DNA of 39,017 nt from Lentisphaera araneosa HTCC2155 (GTDB lineage Bacteria; Verrucomicrobiota; Lentisphaeria; Lentisphaerales; Lentisphaeraceae): positions 1 through 39,017 of the forward strand of contig CAMCSH010000002.1 in the NCBI GenBank assembly GCA_945877655.1, read 5' to 3'. Numbering within the stretch: position 1 is the first letter of the stretch; every line of letters starts with the position of its first letter. The translations under genes and the position numbers were made by a program. Below the pieces are notes generated by a model. The model was not told the DNA's origin. It was given only the letters and a program-made list of their open reading frames with translations, and did no database searches. Positions 1,001 to 12,171 of the stretch are shown piece by piece.

Positions 1001-2299
1001 TCACTCAAACGCCGCTTTCGGCGCCCAGAGTCCAAGAGCCGGATTGGAGACGAAGAAGATCTCTTCGCCGTCGGGCAGGGTGGTCCAGCCGTCGGCAAGC
1101 GTCTCGGGATTGTAGCGTTTGATCGTCTCGGCATAGTCCTGCCAAGCAAAGCCGACGCCTTCGACTTCTTCGCGGGTGATGTCGGGTCCACAGGCGTAGG
1201 TGATCTTGAATCGGCCTTCGCTGGAGCCGTGGATGAGGTGGGCGGCGGCGCTGAGATTTTTCGCCATTTCGGGGTCGGTCTCGACCGCTTTCATGGTCGC
1301 GGGGGTGCCGCGGTAGCCGTGGCGACGGATGAGTTTGTCGATCTCGGGGTCTTCGCCGAACATGTGCAGCGCGGGAGCGAGAACGAGAAGTTCGCCGCCG
1401 GTGGCCATCGCCATACGGGTGCGGTAGACGCTCTTGTTGCCGAGCCAGGTGGTCTTGAACTCGTGCGGATCAAGGAAGACCACGGCCTTCTGGATCGGCT
1501 TGTCGAGAAGGTCGAGATTGACTCGTTGCGACAGGCGGCCGGCGGCTTCGAAGGTGGCATCGTCGTCGCCGCAGTAGAGTCCGCGCAGCTTGAGCTGGTT
1601 GTCAGCCTTGTCCTTGCTGACCACGGTGAGCAGGTAATGGATCGGCAATTTACCGCGGAGGAAACGATCGAAACCGGTGTTCAAGCATTTGCGGACCGGA
1701 GTATCGAGGCGGCCCATCATCCGTTCCATGCCCCAGGCAGCGCCGAGGAAGTGGCTGACGTGGATGGTGCCGGCTCCGCCGACGCCGATGAGGATGTTTT
1801 TGGTGTAGTTGGCGAGGCCGACGACTTCGTGGGGGACAACCTGGCCGACGGAGAGGATGAGATCGTAGCCGGCATAGAGTTCACGGTTGACCGCGACCTT
1901 CATTTCCTGCTTGATCAGGCCTTCGGAGATGGCTTCCATCTCGTTTTGGGGGATCGCGCCGAGCTCGACCAGGTCAGTGCGCCAGCGGTGCGGCAGGAAG
2001 CGTTCGAGCGGGATATCGGGTCCGAAAAACCAGCGCAGCTCGCCTTCGTTCATCGGCACATGGGTGCCAAGCGCCGGCATGAACCAGATGTCGGCTTGCG
2101 ACGAGCGCAACTTCCAGATGATCTGGCTGATCTGGCCGGCGCGGGAATTGCCGCGGGTGTGGTCGGGCGGGATCACCAGAATGCGCTTGGCGGGGCCGAG
2201 TTTGTCGAGGTAGGCGGCAACGTGGGCTTCGAGTTCGGCGTCGCTGATACAGCGGGTGGGAGAGCCATCGGAGATGAGAGTGGGCATCGGGGACCTCAT
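1001..2299 (-). CDS. LarA-like (DUF2088) nickel-dependent hydroxyacid racemase/epimerase family protein
   Basis: DHTR, ALGTHVP, and VVPHEVVGLANYTKNILIGVGGAGTIHVSH with H-x9-K-x15-H spacing as in LarA. Confidence 0.8.
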   Translation of the reverse strand: MRSPMPTLISDGSPTRCISDAELEAHVAAYLDKLGPAKRILVIPPDHTRGNSRAGQISQIIWKLRSSQADIWFMPALGTHVPMNEGELRWFFGPDIPLERFLPHRWRTDLVELGAIPQNEMEAISEGLIKQEMKVAVNRELYAGYDLILSVGQVVPHEVVGLANYTKNILIGVGGAGTIHVSHFLGAAWGMERMMGRLDTPVRKCLNTGFDRFLRGKLPIHYLLTVVSKDKADNQLKLRGLYCGDDDATFEAAGRLSQRVNLDLLDKPIQKAVVFLDPHEFKTTWLGNKSVYRTRMAMATGGELLVLAPALHMFGEDPEIDKLIRRHGYRGTPATMKAVETDPEMAKNLSAAAHLIHGSSEGRFKITYACGPDITREEVEGVGFAWQDYAETIKRYNPETLADGWTTLPDGEEIFFVSNPALGLWAPKAAFE

Positions 2300-2318
2300 G
2301 GGGGTTGGAAGAAAGGGT

Positions 2319-2409
2319 TCACCACAGAGGCACAGAGTACACAGAGTATGAAGATCTGATTTTTGAGCTTAAAAAACAAACTCTGTGTTCTCTGTGTCTC
2401 TGTGGTGAA
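2319..2409. repeat. Inverted repeat of CACAGAGG-type units (30-nt arms, 31-nt spacer)
   Basis: Arms TTCACCACAGAGGCACAGAGTACACAGAGT (2319-2348) and ACTCTGTGTTCTCTGTGTCTCTGTGGTGAA (2380-2409); 28/30 complementary. Confidence 0.95.
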
Positions 2410-2416
2410 TAAAGTG

Positions 2417-3796
2417 CTATTCCGGCAGCGGCTTGCCCTTGGTTTCAGGCAGGAAGGGGAGGACCAGCAGGCCAGTGAGGAGGACGAGGCTCATCCAAAA
2501 GCCGGCATCGCGGAAAACGACGAGTTTTTCCGCTTCGGTGGACAGGCCGGAGGTCATCTTGGTGGTCCAAGCGGCGAGGGTGAAGGGGGCGGTAGCGGCG
2601 ACGAAGCGACCGATGTTGTAGCAAAAACTGACGCCGGTAGCGCGTTGGGATGAGGGGAAGAGTTCCGGCAGGTAGATGGCGAAACCAGCGAAGAGGGAGA
2701 GCTGGGTGGCTCCCATCAGGGGAATCATCCACCAGATCTCCTGGTAGGTGTCTAGGCACTTGAAGACCAGCATGGTGGCGGCGGTAGCCGCGACAAAGCC
2801 GACGGCGAAGGCGGGGCGGCGGCCCCAGACTTGCGCCATTTTGGCGAGCAGGAGCATACCGAAGAAACCACCGAGGTTTTGGGCCATCAGGGCCCAAGCC
2901 TTGGCATTGGCGACAGCGGCAGAGAGGGCTTTTTTCTGTTCGTCGCTGGGGGCTCCGTTGATGCCAAGCAGGAGCTTTTGCTGCTCGGAAATGATGGCGC
3001 CGACAATTTTGGGCTGGAAGTTGCCCAAGCCCCAGAGACCGATGATGCCGGCGGAACAGAGCACCAAGCCAAGCAGGGCATTTTTGCGAGTCTGCTTATT
3101 GCCGAGCAGTTCCGTGTAAGATCCGGCTTTCTCGCCTTTCGCCTTGCCGGCGGCACGGGCATCGATCCATTTCTGCGGTTCACGCAATTTTAAGGCGATG
3201 AAGCCGGTGATCAAGGCAGGGATGGCGCCGACCAGGAAGAGAACCTTCCAGTTCAGTGCAGGAGCGATGACCCCGGCGGTAATCAATGCCGCAACGCCCA
3301 AAGCCACCGCGCCAGCACTGATGTTGCCGATGGTGGAAAGCGCTTGGAAAGTGCCTAGGGCTTTCGGTCTCTTGTCGCCTTCGACGACATCGGAAACCAA
3401 GGCGACCGCAAGGCCGAAGACGCCGCCGACGCCGATGCCGGTGAGGAGTCGATAGAGACAGAAGTCCCAGATGCTGACTGAGAAGGCGCTGAGCCCGGTG
3501 AAGGCGGCGTAGAGGAAGATGCAGAGAGTGAGGATTTTAGCGCGGCCGAGGCGGTCGCCGAGAGCGCCGAAGTACATGCCACCGATGCCCCAGCCAACGA
3601 GGAAGGCGCTCATCGTGTAGGGAGCCAGGTCGGTGCTGCCGGTGATAGCCTTCACCGCGTCTTCGCGCGCCAAGTTGAAGATCTGCTGGTCGAAGCAGTC
3701 GAAGAACCAGGCGGAGGAGGCGATGGCGAAGGCGAAGAGCTGGTAGCGGCTGAGGCCGCGCCACCAGGGACCGGAAGGGGAATTCTCTTGTGACAT
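2417..3796 (-). CDS. MFS transporter
   Basis: Multiple hydrophobic helices; GALGDRLGRAKIL and LYRLLTGIGVGG motifs typical of MFS. Confidence 0.85.
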   Translation of the reverse strand: MSQENSPSGPWWRGLSRYQLFAFAIASSAWFFDCFDQQIFNLAREDAVKAITGSTDLAPYTMSAFLVGWGIGGMYFGALGDRLGRAKILTLCIFLYAAFTGLSAFSVSIWDFCLYRLLTGIGVGGVFGLAVALVSDVVEGDKRPKALGTFQALSTIGNISAGAVALGVAALITAGVIAPALNWKVLFLVGAIPALITGFIALKLREPQKWIDARAAGKAKGEKAGSYTELLGNKQTRKNALLGLVLCSAGIIGLWGLGNFQPKIVGAIISEQQKLLLGINGAPSDEQKKALSAAVANAKAWALMAQNLGGFFGMLLLAKMAQVWGRRPAFAVGFVAATAATMLVFKCLDTYQEIWWMIPLMGATQLSLFAGFAIYLPELFPSSQRATGVSFCYNIGRFVAATAPFTLAAWTTKMTSGLSTEAEKLVVFRDAGFWMSLVLLTGLLVLPFLPETKGKPLPE

Positions 3797-4281
3797 CAGT
3801 TTTTCTCCGCTAGGTTTTTGAGGATGAATTGCACTTGCTGCTCGGGACTCAAAGCGAGATCGACATGCAGGGCGTCGGACGGGATTTCGAGGGTGGCCAG
3901 CTGCGAGTCGAGCAAGGCCGGATTCATGAAGTGGCCTTGGCGTCCGCCGAGGCGCGCAGCGAGGAGCTCTTTCGGGCCGTGGACGAAGATGAATCGCACG
4001 CCGTCGCCGGAGCGCAGGATGTCGCGATATTTCTCCTTCAGGGCCGAGCAGGCGAGCACGGCGCCGCCTTGCGTGTTACACTGGCGGATATGCGCCGCGA
4101 GGTTTTCCAGCCAGGGTTGCCGGTCCTCGTCGTTGAGCGGGATGCCCGCCTTCATCTTGGCGACGTTGGCCGCAGGATGAAAGGGGTCAGCGTCGTGAAA
4201 AGGCAAGCCCAGCGACTTGGCCAAGGCCTCGCCGACAGTGGATTTGCCGCTACCGCAAACACCCATGATGATGTAGGTCAT
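3796..4281 (-). CDS. gntK: Gluconokinase
   Basis: MGVCGSGKSTVGEALAKSLGLPFHDADPFHPAANVAKMKAGIPLNDEDRQPWL, typical GntK; stop overlaps the MFS start. Confidence 0.9.
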   Translation of the reverse strand: MTYIIMGVCGSGKSTVGEALAKSLGLPFHDADPFHPAANVAKMKAGIPLNDEDRQPWLENLAAHIRQCNTQGGAVLACSALKEKYRDILRSGDGVRFIFVHGPKELLAARLGGRQGHFMNPALLDSQLATLEIPSDALHVDLALSPEQQVQFILKNLAEKN

Positions 4282-4300
4282 GAAAGAGCTCCAGATGGAT

Positions 4301-4330
4301 TTACCACAGAGGCACAGAGGACACAGAGAT
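4301..4330. repeat. CACAGAGG-type repeat copy
   Basis: TTACCACAGAGGCACAGAGGACACAGAGAT, immediately 3' of the GxxExxY gene stop. Confidence 0.9.
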
Positions 4331-4331
4331 T

Positions 4332-4718
4332 TTAAAGAACGAATCTCTTGATGCCATTGCGCAGGAGTGGTGTGTTGAAGTTGATGAGCAGACCGCGATG
4401 GATCTTAGAAAGTTTGAGATAGGTGAGGAGCTGAGCTTCATGAATAGATTCTAATTGACTTACAGCTTTGAGCTCGAGAATGACCTTGTCGTCGACCACA
4501 AGATCGAGACGATACTTGCAGTCTATCTCGATACCTTTATAGATCACCGGGAGCTCGATTTGCTGCTTGACCTTGAAGCCAGCCAAACGCAATTCGTAAG
4601 CGAGGCAGTTTTCGTAGGCAGACTCAAGCAAGCCCGGGCCGAGCTCGCGATGGACTTCAATTGCGCAACCAATGATCTTTGCCGTCAGAGCATCTTTTTC
4701 CTGGTTGTGCAGATCCAT
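4332..4718 (-). CDS. GxxExxY family protein (PD-(D/E)XK-like)
   Basis: GCAIEVHRELGPGLLESAYENCLAYELRLAGFKVKQQ...LDLVVDDKVILELKAV; internal start MDLHNQEKD preferred over the 4784 start, which reads through the repeat. Confidence 0.85.
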   Translation of the reverse strand: MDLHNQEKDALTAKIIGCAIEVHRELGPGLLESAYENCLAYELRLAGFKVKQQIELPVIYKGIEIDCKYRLDLVVDDKVILELKAVSQLESIHEAQLLTYLKLSKIHRGLLINFNTPLLRNGIKRFVL

Positions 4719-4768
4719 CGTCGAACTCCTTTTGATTGCTGTGTACATGCTCAATAGCAGAAATATTG

Positions 4769-4858
4769 CGCCACAGAGACACAAAGATCACAGAGGCTCA
4801 AGAAAAATCATTGCGCTTCTGCAGCTCATCTCTGCGTCCTCTGTGCCTCTGTGGTGAA
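4769..4858. repeat. Inverted pair of CACAGAGG-type repeats
   Basis: GCGCCACAGAGACACAAAGATCACAGAGG (4769-4797) and TCTCTGCGTCCTCTGTGCCTCTGTGGTGAA (4829-4858). Confidence 0.9.
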
Positions 4859-4867
4859 TTTATTGTT

Positions 4868-5680
4868 TCACACCCCGGCAAAGGCCGAGAAGCCGCCGTC
4901 GACGGGGAGGATGACGCCGTTGACGAAGCTGGAATCGGGATGCACCAGGAATTTCAAGGCGGTCTTCAGTTCCTTCGCTTCGCCGAAGCGCGAGAAGGGG
5001 GTGTTGCGCAGGATCTTGTCGCCACGCGGCGTCAGGCCACCTTCCGTCGTGGTGAGAAGAAAGCGGTTCTGCTCGGTGAGGAAGAAGCCGGGGGCGATGG
5101 CGTTGACCCGGATGCCTCGCGGCGCGAGATGCACCGCCAGCCACTGGGTAAGGGAATCCACCGCCGCCTTGGCGTTGGAATAAGCGATCACCTTGGTCAG
5201 AGGACGATCGGCGCTCATCGACGACAGGTTGACGATGGTGCCGCGTCGACGCTCGGCCATGCCGTCGCCAAAGACCTGGCAAGGTAGCAGGGTGCCCTTG
5301 AGGTTGAGATCAAAAACCTCGCCGTAAGCTTGTAGATCGACGCCGAAAAAACTCTTCTCTTTTGCGGTCTCCGCCGTGTAAGTCTCGGCCTGGGCCGTCG
5401 CCTTCGGGCTGTTGCCGCCGGCGCCGTTGACCAGGATGTCGACCGGGCCGAAGCTCGCTTCGATCTTGGCTCGGGCCGCTTCCAGAGAGCTGCGGTCGAG
5501 GACGTCGGCCGCGACCACGAGGGTCTCGGTCAGGCCTTTCGCCGCGAGCGCTTTTTGCAGCTCAACGAGCTTGCTTTCGGTGCGTCCGAGAAGGGCGACG
5601 CGATGGCCTTCCTCAAGCAGAGCTTCGACCAGGGCGGAGCAAAGGACGCCGGCGGCGCCAGTGACAAGTGCTGTGCTCAT
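4868..5680 (-). CDS. SDR-family oxidoreductase, D-mannonate oxidoreductase/fructuronate reductase-like
   Basis: MSTALVTGAAGVL start; VNGAGGNSPKAT...FDLNLKGTLLPCQVF resembles SDR-type UxuB; YSNAK catalytic motif. Confidence 0.75.
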   Translation of the reverse strand: MSTALVTGAAGVLCSALVEALLEEGHRVALLGRTESKLVELQKALAAKGLTETLVVAADVLDRSSLEAARAKIEASFGPVDILVNGAGGNSPKATAQAETYTAETAKEKSFFGVDLQAYGEVFDLNLKGTLLPCQVFGDGMAERRRGTIVNLSSMSADRPLTKVIAYSNAKAAVDSLTQWLAVHLAPRGIRVNAIAPGFFLTEQNRFLLTTTEGGLTPRGDKILRNTPFSRFGEAKELKTALKFLVHPDSSFVNGVILPVDGGFSAFAGV

Positions 5681-5753: not shown

Positions 5754-6809
5754 TTAGAGCTCGACACTTTTTCCGCTCTTCGCCGAGCGGTAGATCGCGT
5801 CGATCAGTTCGACCGAGCGACGACCTTCCTGTCCGTTGACTCGAAGGGGCTGGCCGAGACGGATGGCGTCGCAGAAATCCTGCAGGTTGCGGGCGTGCCA
5901 GGAGGCGTCGATCGCCTTGGGATCGGCGGCACCAGCGCCGGCGGCGGCACTGTTGAGGCCGAAACGTTGGCGGATGCTGTCGTCAGCCGGGCTTTCGTCG
6001 CGGAATTCCCAGTGGCGGAACTTGTCATCGCTCATGATGACGCTGCCATGATCGCCGCCGATTTGGATCTCCGCCGGATGCCCTTTGCGGCTCCAGCAAG
6101 CGGTGGTGGCTTGCACCACGCCCTTAGCGCCATTGGCGAAGTCGAGGATGGCGACGGCGCTGTCTTCGACTTCGATGCGTTCATGGGCGATCAGACCGAC
6201 GCTGGCGCTGACCCGTTTCACCGGCCCCATCAGATGCAGAAGCAGGTCGATGGTGTGAATGCCTTGGTTCATCAGGGCGCCGCCGCCGTCCAGGGCCCAG
6301 GTGCCACGCCATTTACCGGAGTCGTAATATTCCTGGGTGCGCCACCACTTGATGCTCGCCTCGGCCAAGGCGATGCGACCGAAACGGCCTGCCTCGATCG
6401 CCTCTTTCAGTACTATGGTGCTGGGGTTGAAACGGCGCGGGAAAATTCCCGACAGCAAGACCCGGTTTTTTGCAGCCGCAGCAATCATCTGGTCGATCCG
6501 ATCCGGCGTCACTTCCAAGGGCTTTTCGCAGATCACATGCTTACCCCCATCCATCGCCGCGAGCGAGAGCTCAAGGTGTGCACCGCTGGGGGTGCAGACA
6601 CTCACTGCTGACAGGCCCTCGTGCGCCAGAAAGGCGTCAAAATCCGAATAACTCGCACAGCCGTGGCGAGCCGCAAAATCCGCTCCTTTGGCGGCGTCGC
6701 GGGCGTAGATCGCGCTCAACTTGGCGCCCGTCACCGAGCGTAGCGCGACGGCGTGAAATTCCGAGATCATTCCGGCACCGATGATGCCTAATCCAACTGG
6801 CTCTGACAT
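5754..6809 (-). CDS. Gfo/Idh/MocA family oxidoreductase
   Basis: GLGIIGAGMISEFHAVAL N-terminus; HVICEKPLEVT motif. Confidence 0.92.
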   Translation of the reverse strand: MSEPVGLGIIGAGMISEFHAVALRSVTGAKLSAIYARDAAKGADFAARHGCASYSDFDAFLAHEGLSAVSVCTPSGAHLELSLAAMDGGKHVICEKPLEVTPDRIDQMIAAAAKNRVLLSGIFPRRFNPSTIVLKEAIEAGRFGRIALAEASIKWWRTQEYYDSGKWRGTWALDGGGALMNQGIHTIDLLLHLMGPVKRVSASVGLIAHERIEVEDSAVAILDFANGAKGVVQATTACWSRKGHPAEIQIGGDHGSVIMSDDKFRHWEFRDESPADDSIRQRFGLNSAAAGAGAADPKAIDASWHARNLQDFCDAIRLGQPLRVNGQEGRRSVELIDAIYRSAKSGKSVEL

Positions 6810-7123: not shown

Positions 7124-10100
7124 ATGTTCGCATCCTTCAATTGCCCGGCCTGCCAAAAAGAGACGCCTGTCAAATCGCCTCTCAAGCGTCAGAAAATTCA
7201 TTGCAAGTTCTGCCAGACCCCCATTCTGTCGCTCAGCGGAGCGGCAGAAAAAGATTTTATCGTCAATGACGTCTATCATCTCCGCCATCTCATCAATTCA
7301 GACCAATTCAGCCGGATGTTTGCGGCCCTGAATTTGCAGGATAAAAATCTCTGTCTGGTGCGGGTCTACGATTCTGAATTCTGCGCCGCACTTAGCGACA
7401 TTCAAGGAATCGGAGAAGTTTTGCAATCCGCCTCGAAAATGGCGGGACGCAATCACTTGGAGGTGATGTCCTGGGGCATCGATGAGGGCTGCCTCTTTCA
7501 AGTCAGCCCCTATGTCGAAATTGAGCCCCTCGACGAGATCATCAAAGCCAACCAATGCCTGGAGCTGATCGACGCATTGAATCTCAGCCGTGAACTTCTC
7601 ACCTCGCTTGATGAAGCCCACTTGGCTTGTAACACCAGCCACTTCAATTTGACCCCGAAAAACATTTATATCGGGCGCGACAGCTGCGTTTATTTCGCCG
7701 ACTTCGGCATGGTCTCGCAATTGATCAAAGACACGCGTTTCCTGAACTCGCAATTCCCCATCTATGACCTGTCCTTTTTGGCTCCGGAAATGGGTCTGGA
7801 AGGCAAGTTTCCACGCGTCTCTTCCGATCTCTACAGCATCGGCTGCTTGATCTATTTCATCGTCACCGGCACCAGCCCCTACGCCAATTGTCAAAGTCCA
7901 GCTGAAGTCGCCTACGGGACCCTATTCTTTCCGCCTTCCTTGAGAAACAGCCTGGCGCCTTCCTTCTTCAAGCTTTTCGAACAGTTTATCGCCACCAATC
8001 CCAAGGACCGCTTCAATTCCTATTCGGACGCCGTTGCGGCGATTGATCAATTCACGAAATCAAGCTTGGGCGTCGCGGCACCGACACGAGCCGTCCGTCA
8101 CACCTCAATTTACGATGCAGAGATTTTTGCCGACCTCAAAAACGCCCCGCGAGCCGCGGCATCAAGCCGGAGCTCCAAACTCAAATCGGTCAACGCGGAA
8201 TCGGCCCGCGCACGCTTAAACACCTTGCGCGATCTTGAGCTGTCGCCGGAAGACATGCGGAAAATGGCGGCCCACACCAAGCGGCGGGGCAAGGCGAAGC
8301 CCGACTCCTCTCCTTCCATAGGTCTCATCGTCTTCTGCGCGGTGTCCGGCCTCTCGATCTTGATCGGCCTGCTCTGGATGATGTCTGGCGGCGTCAAGAA
8401 CCCCGCCGAAGAACCAGCAATCGCCGAAAAGACCAACAACAATTCCGCCGAAAAGACCAACAGCAAACCCGCCGAAAAGACCAACAGCAATTCCGCCGAG
8501 AAAACGGTCGGTGCGGCGTGGGAGCAGGAACTGAAAGCTCTGCGGACCGAAATGAATCGCCTGCCGCTCAATCCGGATGGCTTCGCCGCCAGCCTGCAGA
8601 GGGCGCGTGTCCTGGCGTCCGCTGACATCACGAAAAACACCTTGCTCGACACCTTTGAAACGACGATCAAGTCACGAGTGGAGAAGGAGGTCCAGGTGGC
8701 GATGGTGGCGCTTCGCAGCGACGTCAACTGCTTGGTTTTAGAAAACAAGTTTTCCGAAGCAGTGGACAAATGCACCAACTACTCCGGAAACCTAGCTTCT
8801 TCCACCCTGGAACAACGGGAGGCGATGATTGTCAAAATCCGCGAACGGCAATTGCAGAAAGCTATAGAGCCCATTGGTGATGTAGTCAAAAAAGTCGAGC
8901 CACTGACTGCTGTATCCTTATCGCCCGAAGAGGAATTGGCCAAGACGAAAAATGACTTGCTATTGAACAGCCTTTCAATTAACTTGACGAAGAAAAATCT
9001 GGTGCTTTGCGCTAAGGATCTCAAGGAACTCAGAACTCTTAATCCAGAAGATTTAGAAATTATAAAACTAGAGAAATTGATTGATAAATTAGACACTAAG
9101 GCGCTGGACTCTTTGATCATCGAGAACATCTCCTTTGACAAGAATTCAAAGATTATTTACAAGAAGATGGGGATTGAGTATAGCGGCAAGGTGGTGTCAA
9201 ACAACGAAAGTTCAGTAGTGATAGAAATCTATTACGGCGGAAAAAAAATTCAAACACGTCTCAGCCTCAATGAAATCGATCCCCTGCAATTGCTGCAGTG
9301 GGTGAAGACCAACAACGCCTCCGACTCAGCCTTGATCCGGGCTTATTTCTTGTTAAAGAACAATTTCTATGCGCTTGCCGCAAAAGAGATCCACGATTAC
9401 AAAGGTCTGGCAGCAAAGCTATTCGCCGATGAATTCCAAGAGCAGATCAGCGGCGAAGCCGAGACCGCTTATTTGAAATTGCTGGCTCAAATGAGTATCG
9501 AAAGAAGCTGGCTGATGAAGGAGGAGGATTTCAAATTTTCCGAAGATCAGGCGTGGACAGCGCAGCCAGAACTGAATAATTATCTCGAAAAATTCCGAGG
9601 TGTTTCTTATCTTGAGAAAAACGGCAAGGAAATCGACTTTCTTAAGAATAAAATACGCTCGACACTGCCTGCCAAAATCCCCAATGGAACAATCTTCGCC
9701 AGCTCTGAAGGCAGCCGGGGTACGATAGATTTGCAGAGCGCCCTGAAACAGGAAGGAGTCAAGATCATCCGTCTGCTGCCGGGGATATACGAAGGCAAAT
9801 ACACCCTGAACCAGAAAGGCCTCACCGTGATCGGTCACCCTGAAGCGGTGTTCAGCACCGGCTTAACGGTGGCCAGCTCGGAAGTCATCCTGCGGCGTCT
9901 GCGCTTGCAAGAAGGCAATCTCGACATTGCCAAGAAGTCGGACAAAATCACGGTGGAATCCTGCCGGTTCAAAAACTGCGGCATTAATCTCGGTGGCGAC
10001 AACGACTTGATCTCAATCGATAACTGTTTGATTTTTGGCTTGAGCGGCCCTGGCAACATGCGCAATGTGGAACTGAAAAACTGTACCATTTTGACCCAGA

Positions 10101-10489
10101 AGCCGAAAGGTGGCACAGCCTTCACCGTGCGAGGATTCAACAAGGGCGCCAGCTTTGTCAACTGCATTCTTGAAGCCCAGGAAGGTTACACCATGGAATT
10201 TGACAACCTGACCAATCACAACCTCAAACTCAGCCACTGCCTGATCGCCGGTAAACATGGTTTGGCTCTCGCCTTAAAAGAAGAGCTCAGAATCGATGAT
10301 ATCAGCATCTTCAAAGACAAAATCGCTCGCTTGACCAAGGTGACTAACACCAGAGCACAATTCAAAGATCCAGCCAATGACGATTACCGCCTGAAAGACT
10401 TGACCCCCGGCTTCCTCGAAGGCTCCGACCAGAAATCCATCGGCATCCAAATGAACGATCAGCTCGAGTTGGTCAAAGACAAAAACTGA
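7124..10489 (+). CDS. Zinc-ribbon / kinase-fold (probable pseudokinase) / TM / C-terminal beta-helix-like protein
   Basis: CPACQK...CKFCQTP; SHFNLTPKNIYI replaces HRDLKPxNI; ADFGM; LAPEMG; TM VFCAVSGLSILIGLLWMMSGG; C-terminal repeated short strands (GLTVIGHPEAVFSTGLTV...ITVESCRFKNCGINLGG). Confidence 0.8.
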   Translation: MFASFNCPACQKETPVKSPLKRQKIHCKFCQTPILSLSGAAEKDFIVNDVYHLRHLINSDQFSRMFAALNLQDKNLCLVRVYDSEFCAALSDIQGIGEVLQSASKMAGRNHLEVMSWGIDEGCLFQVSPYVEIEPLDEIIKANQCLELIDALNLSRELLTSLDEAHLACNTSHFNLTPKNIYIGRDSCVYFADFGMVSQLIKDTRFLNSQFPIYDLSFLAPEMGLEGKFPRVSSDLYSIGCLIYFIVTGTSPYANCQSPAEVAYGTLFFPPSLRNSLAPSFFKLFEQFIATNPKDRFNSYSDAVAAIDQFTKSSLGVAAPTRAVRHTSIYDAEIFADLKNAPRAAASSRSSKLKSVNAESARARLNTLRDLELSPEDMRKMAAHTKRRGKAKPDSSPSIGLIVFCAVSGLSILIGLLWMMSGGVKNPAEEPAIAEKTNNNSAEKTNSKPAEKTNSNSAEKTVGAAWEQELKALRTEMNRLPLNPDGFAASLQRARVLASADITKNTLLDTFETTIKSRVEKEVQVAMVALRSDVNCLVLENKFSEAVDKCTNYSGNLASSTLEQREAMIVKIRERQLQKAIEPIGDVVKKVEPLTAVSLSPEEELAKTKNDLLLNSLSINLTKKNLVLCAKDLKELRTLNPEDLEIIKLEKLIDKLDTKALDSLIIENISFDKNSKIIYKKMGIEYSGKVVSNNESSVVIEIYYGGKKIQTRLSLNEIDPLQLLQWVKTNNASDSALIRAYFLLKNNFYALAAKEIHDYKGLAAKLFADEFQEQISGEAETAYLKLLAQMSIERSWLMKEEDFKFSEDQAWTAQPELNNYLEKFRGVSYLEKNGKEIDFLKNKIRSTLPAKIPNGTIFASSEGSRGTIDLQSALKQEGVKIIRLLPGIYEGKYTLNQKGLTVIGHPEAVFSTGLTVASSEVILRRLRLQEGNLDIAKKSDKITVESCRFKNCGINLGGDNDLISIDNCLIFGLSGPGNMRNVELKNCTILTQKPKGGTAFTVRGFNKGASFVNCILEAQEGYTMEFDNLTNHNLKLSHCLIAGKHGLALALKEELRIDDISIFKDKIARLTKVTNTRAQFKDPANDDYRLKDLTPGFLEGSDQKSIGIQMNDQLELVKDKN
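8423..8506 (+). repeat. In-frame 24-bp tandem repeat (AEKTN[NS][NK][SP], ~3.5 copies)
   Basis: GCCGAAAAGACCAACA(A/G)CAA(TT/AC)CC repeated at 8423, 8447, 8471, with a partial copy at 8495. Confidence 0.95.
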
Positions 10490-12000: not shown

Positions 12001-12077
12001 TGGTACACTCGTGAGGGGTCGAACCTCAAACCTTCTGGTTCGTAGCCAGATGCTCTATCCAATTGAGCTACGAGTGC
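12001..12077 (-). tRNA. tRNA-Arg (ACG), CCA encoded
   Basis: Reverse complement folds: GCACTCG TA GCTC AATTGGATA GAGC A TCTGG CTACGAA CCAGA AGGTT TGAGG TTCGACC CCTCA CGAGTGT ACCA. Confidence 0.95.
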
Positions 12078-12094
12078 ATAAATCTCTGTCGTCC

Positions 12095-12171
12095 TGGTAC
12101 ACTCGTGAGGGGTCGAACCTCAAACCTTCTGGTTCGTAGCCAGATGCTCTATCCAATTGAGCTACGAGTGC
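12095..12171 (-). tRNA. tRNA-Arg (ACG), identical second copy
   Basis: 77 nt identical to 12001-12077, 17-nt spacer. Confidence 0.95.

Follow-up and report, generated by a model that had tools for sequence, protein, structure and literature searches.

Which reaction does a LarA-like protein carry out when its gene stands among those of sugar-acid breakdown? The question is raised by Lentisphaera araneosa HTCC2155 (assembly GCA_945877655.1), in the first 7 kb of a 39,017-nucleotide stretch of contig CAMCSH010000002.1 (positions 1 to 39,017), the whole of which is called here the window. A first-pass annotation had noticed there one co-directional block encoding a UxuB-type short-chain dehydrogenase/reductase (SDR), a gluconokinase (GntK), a major facilitator superfamily (MFS) transporter and the LarA-like protein; all four lie indeed on the minus strand, with family scores in keeping (Table 1). 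It had also proposed that the LarA-like enzyme links D-mannonate to D-gluconate, bypassing the mannonate dehydratase UxuA. This idea gains support from the kinship of the protein with LarA homolog (LarAH) group 18 and with the epimerase GntE2, from a UxuA that is absent or divergent, and from the operon of the relatives. The block is thus probably the middle part of a route from glucuronate, a plant sugar acid, to the pentose-phosphate pathway, in which the group 18 protein (LarAH18) would epimerise mannonate to gluconate and so replace UxuA.

The LarA-like protein and its predicted substrate

The LarA-like protein passes the model NF052594 (NPN_18_hexonate, "nickel-dependent putative hexonate epimerase", LarAH group 18) with 587.1 bits for a cut-off of 500. 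Its only relative by sequence in the Protein Data Bank (PDB) is 4NAR, the GntE2 protein of Thermotoga maritima (1.2e-31). The same entry is the first structural match of its AlphaFold model (pLDDT 92.5), with an E-value of 2.7e-31, TM-scores of 0.79/0.81 and 23% identity, the lactate and malate racemases coming next at 1.8e-19 or weaker. GntE2 is a proven D-mannonate/D-gluconate 2-epimerase, working on unphosphorylated mannonate (PMC7583248). The first-pass annotation had considered that phylogeny might place the protein with an unrelated substrate class; it falls in a predicted hexonate-epimerase group, with GntE2 as the nearest solved structure.

The residues that bind the nickel-pincer nucleotide (NPN), R49, K167 and H183 (R75, K184 and H200 of LarA), and the catalytic D46, H80, H157 and K289 (D72, H108, H174 and K298 of LarA) are invariant in 22 homologs. 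So is the hexonate signature, E158 V159 after the catalytic His, W285 in alpha 11 and A353 in alpha 14, which in groups 18-20 reads E-V/S, W and A/V at these places (PMC7583248). LarAH18 has besides its own invariant residues, R295, H357, S360 and R363, that differ from GntE2; R295 and R363 align there to Q and T.

Groups 19 and 20 were assayed and are D-gluconate 2-epimerases, while for group 18 a hexonate substrate was only hypothesised (PMC7583248), and LarAH18 is not named in the text of the follow-up of 2024 (PMC11770544). As the literature names the substrate just "a hexonate" (PMC7583248), and as the SDR of the window also scores, under cut-off, on gluconate 5-dehydrogenase models, LarAH18 might use another hexonate pair, e.g. 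L-gulonate/L-idonate or D-galactonate/D-talonate, the SDR being then a 5-keto-gluconate or similar reductase. We hold this to be improbable, the constant linkage with UxaC, UxuB, GntK and Gnd and the exchange with UxuA, both detailed below, pointing to mannonate and gluconate.

A predicted route and its operons

Family profile searches of the own genome, on which all claims about it rest, found larB, larC and larE, the genes of cofactor synthesis that the first-pass annotation had proposed to look for, each above cut-off (contig C1, 266.6 bits; C103, 183.8; C118, 288). UxaC (C274) passes the glucuronate isomerase model, with 557 vs 387 bits, and the 6-phosphogluconate dehydrogenase Gnd (C125, 777 bits) is also above cut-off. 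The UxuB-type SDR, a GntE-like protein, GntK, Gnd and UxaC, as a T. maritima-type route needs, are consequently all encoded by this genome. As for UxuA, no protein reached the curated cut-offs in the own genome, the enolase-superfamily mannonate dehydratase (ManD/RspA) not having been searched for; the sole member of the family (C28, 376 amino acids) stays below both TIGR00695 (102.1 vs 199.55 bits) and NF003027 (138.4 vs 191 bits). The absence of uxuA, which the first-pass annotation had proposed to check, thus holds at these cut-offs, blurred by one divergent protein. The same annotation had left open two fates for the product. The Entner-Doudoroff pathway was rejected, as no Edd is above cut-off in the own genome (best 224.9 vs 708.25 bits) or in any of 60 class-level relatives; with Gnd present, the product should enter the oxidative pentose-phosphate pathway.

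From the gene identities, the residues, the cofactor genes, the conservation of the operon and the near-exclusion of UxuA, we infer the substrate, the direction and the order of the steps as follows. UxaC, encoded elsewhere in the own genome and in the operon of relatives, would convert D-glucuronate to D-fructuronate, which the SDR would reduce to D-mannonate. LarAH18, carrying the NPN made by LarB, LarE and LarC, would remove the C2 hydride of mannonate and return it to the opposite face, giving D-gluconate. Phosphorylation to 6-phosphogluconate by GntK would draw this reversible epimerisation forward, and Gnd would decarboxylate 6-phosphogluconate to ribulose 5-phosphate. The route would stand in for UxuA, KdgK and the KDPG aldolase, and recover one reducing equivalent.

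The synteny in relatives, another check that the first-pass annotation had put forward, agrees with this scheme. In the five relatives of the same family (G001-G005) the order uxaC-SDR-gntK-larA is kept on one strand, and these five genomes have no PF03786 (UxuA) match at all. The order is larA-uxaC-SDR in G016 and SDR-gnd-larA in three members of the genus g18 (G023, G034, G050). Moreover gntK and larA are fused twice: in G053, another member of Lentisphaeria, into a 615-residue open frame (L061:9368-11215; GntK 169 bits, LarAH18 623 bits) with the SDR before and gnd after, and in the gammaproteobacterium Catenovulum maritimum Q1 into 591 residues (L105:7515-9290; 177 and 613 bits). Among all the larA open reading frames checked for fused partners, including the over-long ones of L058, L069 and L071, GntK was found in these two only. 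Fusions in separate phyla are strong genomic evidence that kinase and epimerase would act in consecutive steps.

GntK is confined, among the relatives, to the family of the window and G053. Where it is lacking, its slot is occupied by a PfkB protein (e.g. L066:11082-12155), found with 61-100% identity in 22 genomes that all have LarAH18, plus a partial copy in G024 without LarAH18 (p 2e-6); across phyla it is 63-73% identical and nearly always in LarAH18 genomes. Its nearest structures are 2-keto-3-deoxygluconate (KDG) kinases (2AFB, 28% identity), and a KDG-kinase-like PfkB, about 33% identical, adjoins UxuA in G043. As this PfkB stands beside Gnd with UxuA missing, the best reading makes it a member of the KdgK branch that would have been recruited as a gluconokinase (or mannonate kinase). 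No report of such a gluconokinase was found among titles and abstract openings on gluconate kinase, PfkB and 6-phosphogluconate. G001 and G003 have both kinases, PfkB lying between gntK and larA, which suggests that their roles differ to some extent; neither kinase is present in eight of the LarAH18 relatives.

The position of the kinase gene, upstream of larA or fused to it, would also suit the inverse order, GntK or PfkB phosphorylating mannonate and LarAH18 then epimerising 6-phosphomannonate to 6-phosphogluconate. Both activities were shown in extracts of Lactobacillus suebicus (PMC6978723), the characterised GntEs have a high KM for free mannonate, 9-120 mM (PMC7583248, PMC11770544), and the replacement of the Q and T of GntE2 by R295 and R363 goes in the same direction. 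On the other hand the kinase of the window belongs to the gluconokinase family, and GntE2 uses the unphosphorylated substrate, so that we regard this order as unlikely.

Distribution of LarAH18 and UxuA

A first count of PF03786 matches gave UxuA in half of the relatives. It was rejected because many of these matches are divergent short paralogs, present in both LarAH18 and UxuA genomes, and a match was then counted as UxuA only from about 350 bits upwards. Of the 60 relatives, 52 are UxaC-positive (partial genes at contig ends included), and these distribute into 32 with LarAH18 only, 15 with UxuA only, one with both and four with neither. By genus, 23 have LarAH18 only, seven UxuA only, one both (in one genome) and two neither, the last, g18, being mixed. 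Three species of g18 among the relatives have LarAH18 and three UxuA, never both in one genome. In the UxuA species the SDR is directly followed by uxuA (G028, G036) and gnd is missing (G028, G036, G056); sister species of one genus thus have a homologous SDR followed either by uxuA or by gnd-larA. Beside this, in the loci L086 (4025-7189) and L087 (3689-6948) UxaC-like, SDR and short UxuA-like genes cluster a second time, possibly forming a separate sugar-acid pathway.

In a wider GTDB scan, 80 of at least 582 confirmed LarAH18 loci were examined, spanning Lentisphaerae, Verrucomicrobia, Kiritimatiellae, Bacteroidota, Ignavibacteria, Acidobacteria, Planctomycetes, Gammaproteobacteria, Spirochaetes and Bacillota. 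Among the 80 loci listed, the neighbourhood of larA contains Gnd in 43 (all on the same strand), a UxuB-type SDR in 43 (42 on the same strand), a UxaC-type gene in 21 and a separate gntK in six. In 30 loci larA has nearby a PfkB kinase that shares 63% or more identity with the G001 protein, always on the same strand and in 25 cases within 300 bases; this kinase is never together with GntK in these 80 loci. That the same neighbours recur across phyla indicates that the grouping is not due to chance.

Besides the high KM of the known GntEs, several observations weigh against a replacement of UxuA by LarAH18. The divergent UxuA-like protein of the own genome keeps the motifs HPDDPP, C, H and DH, which we take to be metal ligands, so that a dehydratase role is possible for it. 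No group 18 member is among the assayed LarAH enzymes, which makes the mannonate/gluconate activity a prediction. The exclusion in the 52 relatives has a Fisher p of about 1e-8 by a statistic that ignores phylogeny, and phylum-wide the effect is weaker, 17 of 388 genomes carrying both genes vs 33.7 expected (p about 2e-5), among them two further g18 genomes (G213, G270). LarAH18 is therefore the usual, not the invariable, alternative to UxuA. In addition UxuA stands near larA in eight of the 80 loci listed, as would suit a reverse flow where gluconate is converted to mannonate and enters via UxuA, LarA serving the use of gluconate and not of uronates. Such a flow is very improbable: UxuA is missing from most of the relatives that carry LarAH18, gluconate would need no enzyme but GntK, and the operon contains UxaC and UxuB.

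Finally, six genomes with LarAH18 (G023, G034, G050, G035, G037, G043) have no LarB, LarC or LarE above cut-off. They are 88-98% complete, which makes the loss of all three genes by incomplete assembly unlikely; LarAH18 of G023, G034 and G043 keeps all the cofactor residues, and G023 also encodes a canonical LarA (L083:8018-9436). Scavenging of NPN or another maturation path are our guesses for these genomes; a literature search on NPN scavenging found nothing relevant. Four others (G025, G027, G045, G047) have LarB and LarC, with LarE not above cut-off, and another sulfur-insertion protein may serve there.

Layout of the block and known routes

Family profile searches place six genes on the minus strand in the first 7 kb of the window (Table 1).

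Table 1. Features of the block in the window (scores in bits, followed by the cut-off where given)
Feature	Position	Strand	Basis
larA homolog (LarAH group 18), predicted to encode an NPN (nickel)-dependent epimerase acting at C2 of D-mannonate/D-gluconate	1001..2299	-	NF052594, 4NAR match, invariant residues
Solo copy of the inverted repeat of the insertion, between MFS and larA	2318..2409	.	Arms 2318-2350 and 2377-2409, 91% complementary
MFS transporter, predicted to import hexuronates or aldonates (substrate from context only)	2417..3796	-	Pfam MFS_1 104.9, Sugar_tr 98.2
gntK, gluconokinase	3796..4281	-	TIGR01313 168.6 vs 113.75; PDB gluconate kinases 1KNQ (6e-31), 3T61 (3e-36)
GxxExxY-family PD-(D/E)XK protein, repeat-bounded insertion, outside the pathway	4332..4784	-	TIGR04256 162, cut-off 35
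SDR-type UxuB (PRK08277), D-fructuronate reductase / D-mannonate oxidoreductase	4868..5680	-	NF006132 (D-mannonate oxidoreductase) 356.6 vs 281
Gfo/Idh/MocA oxidoreductase, just upstream of the SDR	5754..6809	-	Pfam GFO_IDH_MocA families

The SDR has 270 residues from an ATG at 5680 preceded by GGAG, the mechanical open reading frame extending to 5767, and the stop of the Gfo/Idh/MocA gene lies 73 bases ahead of this true start. A homolog of the latter gene, 55-58% identical, is near the larA operon of the five family relatives, at a different position. The gntK and MFS genes overlap by one base; among the NCBIfam families listed, no specific one is above cut-off for the MFS protein. A repeat search found the GxxExxY gene bounded by 32-nucleotide inverted repeats (4299-4330 and 4828-4859, 94% complementary), so that 4299-4859 resembles a mobile element, or one carried by repeats, inserted in the operon; its repeat, alone, forms the hairpin before larA. 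Further on, the window encodes a 1121-residue protein (7124-10489) with a Ser/Thr-kinase-like N-terminal part and a long C-terminal region, and two tandem tRNA-Arg(acg) genes (12001-12171, minus strand).

The concept of the route is already known, since it was proposed for T. maritima in 2012 (Rodionova) from gene clusters, as cited in PMC6978723, and GntE2 activity was proven in 2020 (PMC7583248). In T. maritima clustered genes (operon aldH-pelB-gnd-uxaRED-gntEK) likewise lead, by UxaC-UxaE-UxaD-GntE-GntK-Gnd, from hexuronate via fructuronate, mannonate and, with a LarA homolog, gluconate to 6-phosphogluconate and Gnd (PMC3750489). However its epimerase belongs to group 20 and is 23% identical, by structural alignment, to the group 18 protein of the window; its cluster serves galacturonate via UxaE, whereas the route of the window would serve glucuronate with an SDR of PRK08277 type; and it also keeps a uxuA operon, which LarAH18 genomes here usually lack. 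With the GntE enzymes of LarAH19, LarAH20 and LarAH15 (PMC7583248, PMC11770544), LarAH18 shares the fold, the NPN and catalytic residues and the hexonate signature, but it is a separate group, and the invariant residues given above differ from GntE2. According to PMC6978723, the 2012 work also pointed out homologs of gntE in Acidobacterium and Terriglobus, which may include group 18. L. suebicus also connects the upper part of the isomerase pathway with 6-phosphogluconate without UxuA, but by a mannonate kinase acting before a 6-phosphomannonate 2-epimerase (PMC6978723). The canonical isomerase (Ashwell) pathway, UxaC-UxuB-UxuA-KdgK, has UxaC and UxuB in common with the proposed route, UxuA-bearing relatives having the homologous SDR beside uxuA; it dehydrates mannonate to KDG where the proposed route would epimerise it.

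What appears new is group 18 as predicted carrier of the epimerase step and, on strong genomic evidence, as replacement of UxuA; to this are added the near-exclusion between it and UxuA among the relatives, the fusions, and PfkB as a candidate partner. None of these was found in the literature searched. Our searches likewise turned up no paper that connects glucuronate with the nickel-pincer cofactor, nor one that connects uxuB and gluconate with lactate racemase.

If the proposed route is true, it would give a function to LarA group 18, predict natural bifunctional gluconokinase-epimerases and make of PfkB a possible new gluconokinase. If LarAH18 acted rather on 6-phosphomannonate, it would indicate what sort of gene the activity of L. 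suebicus still lacks, and would be to our knowledge the first NPN enzyme using a sugar phosphate. Under the preferred reading, epimerisation of free mannonate, some lineages would appear to depend on a nickel-pincer cofactor without making it. A nickel-cofactor epimerase would then replace a textbook dehydratase in the uronate catabolism of many uncultured and gut bacteria, which an annotation calling glucuronate use by UxuA alone would misread.

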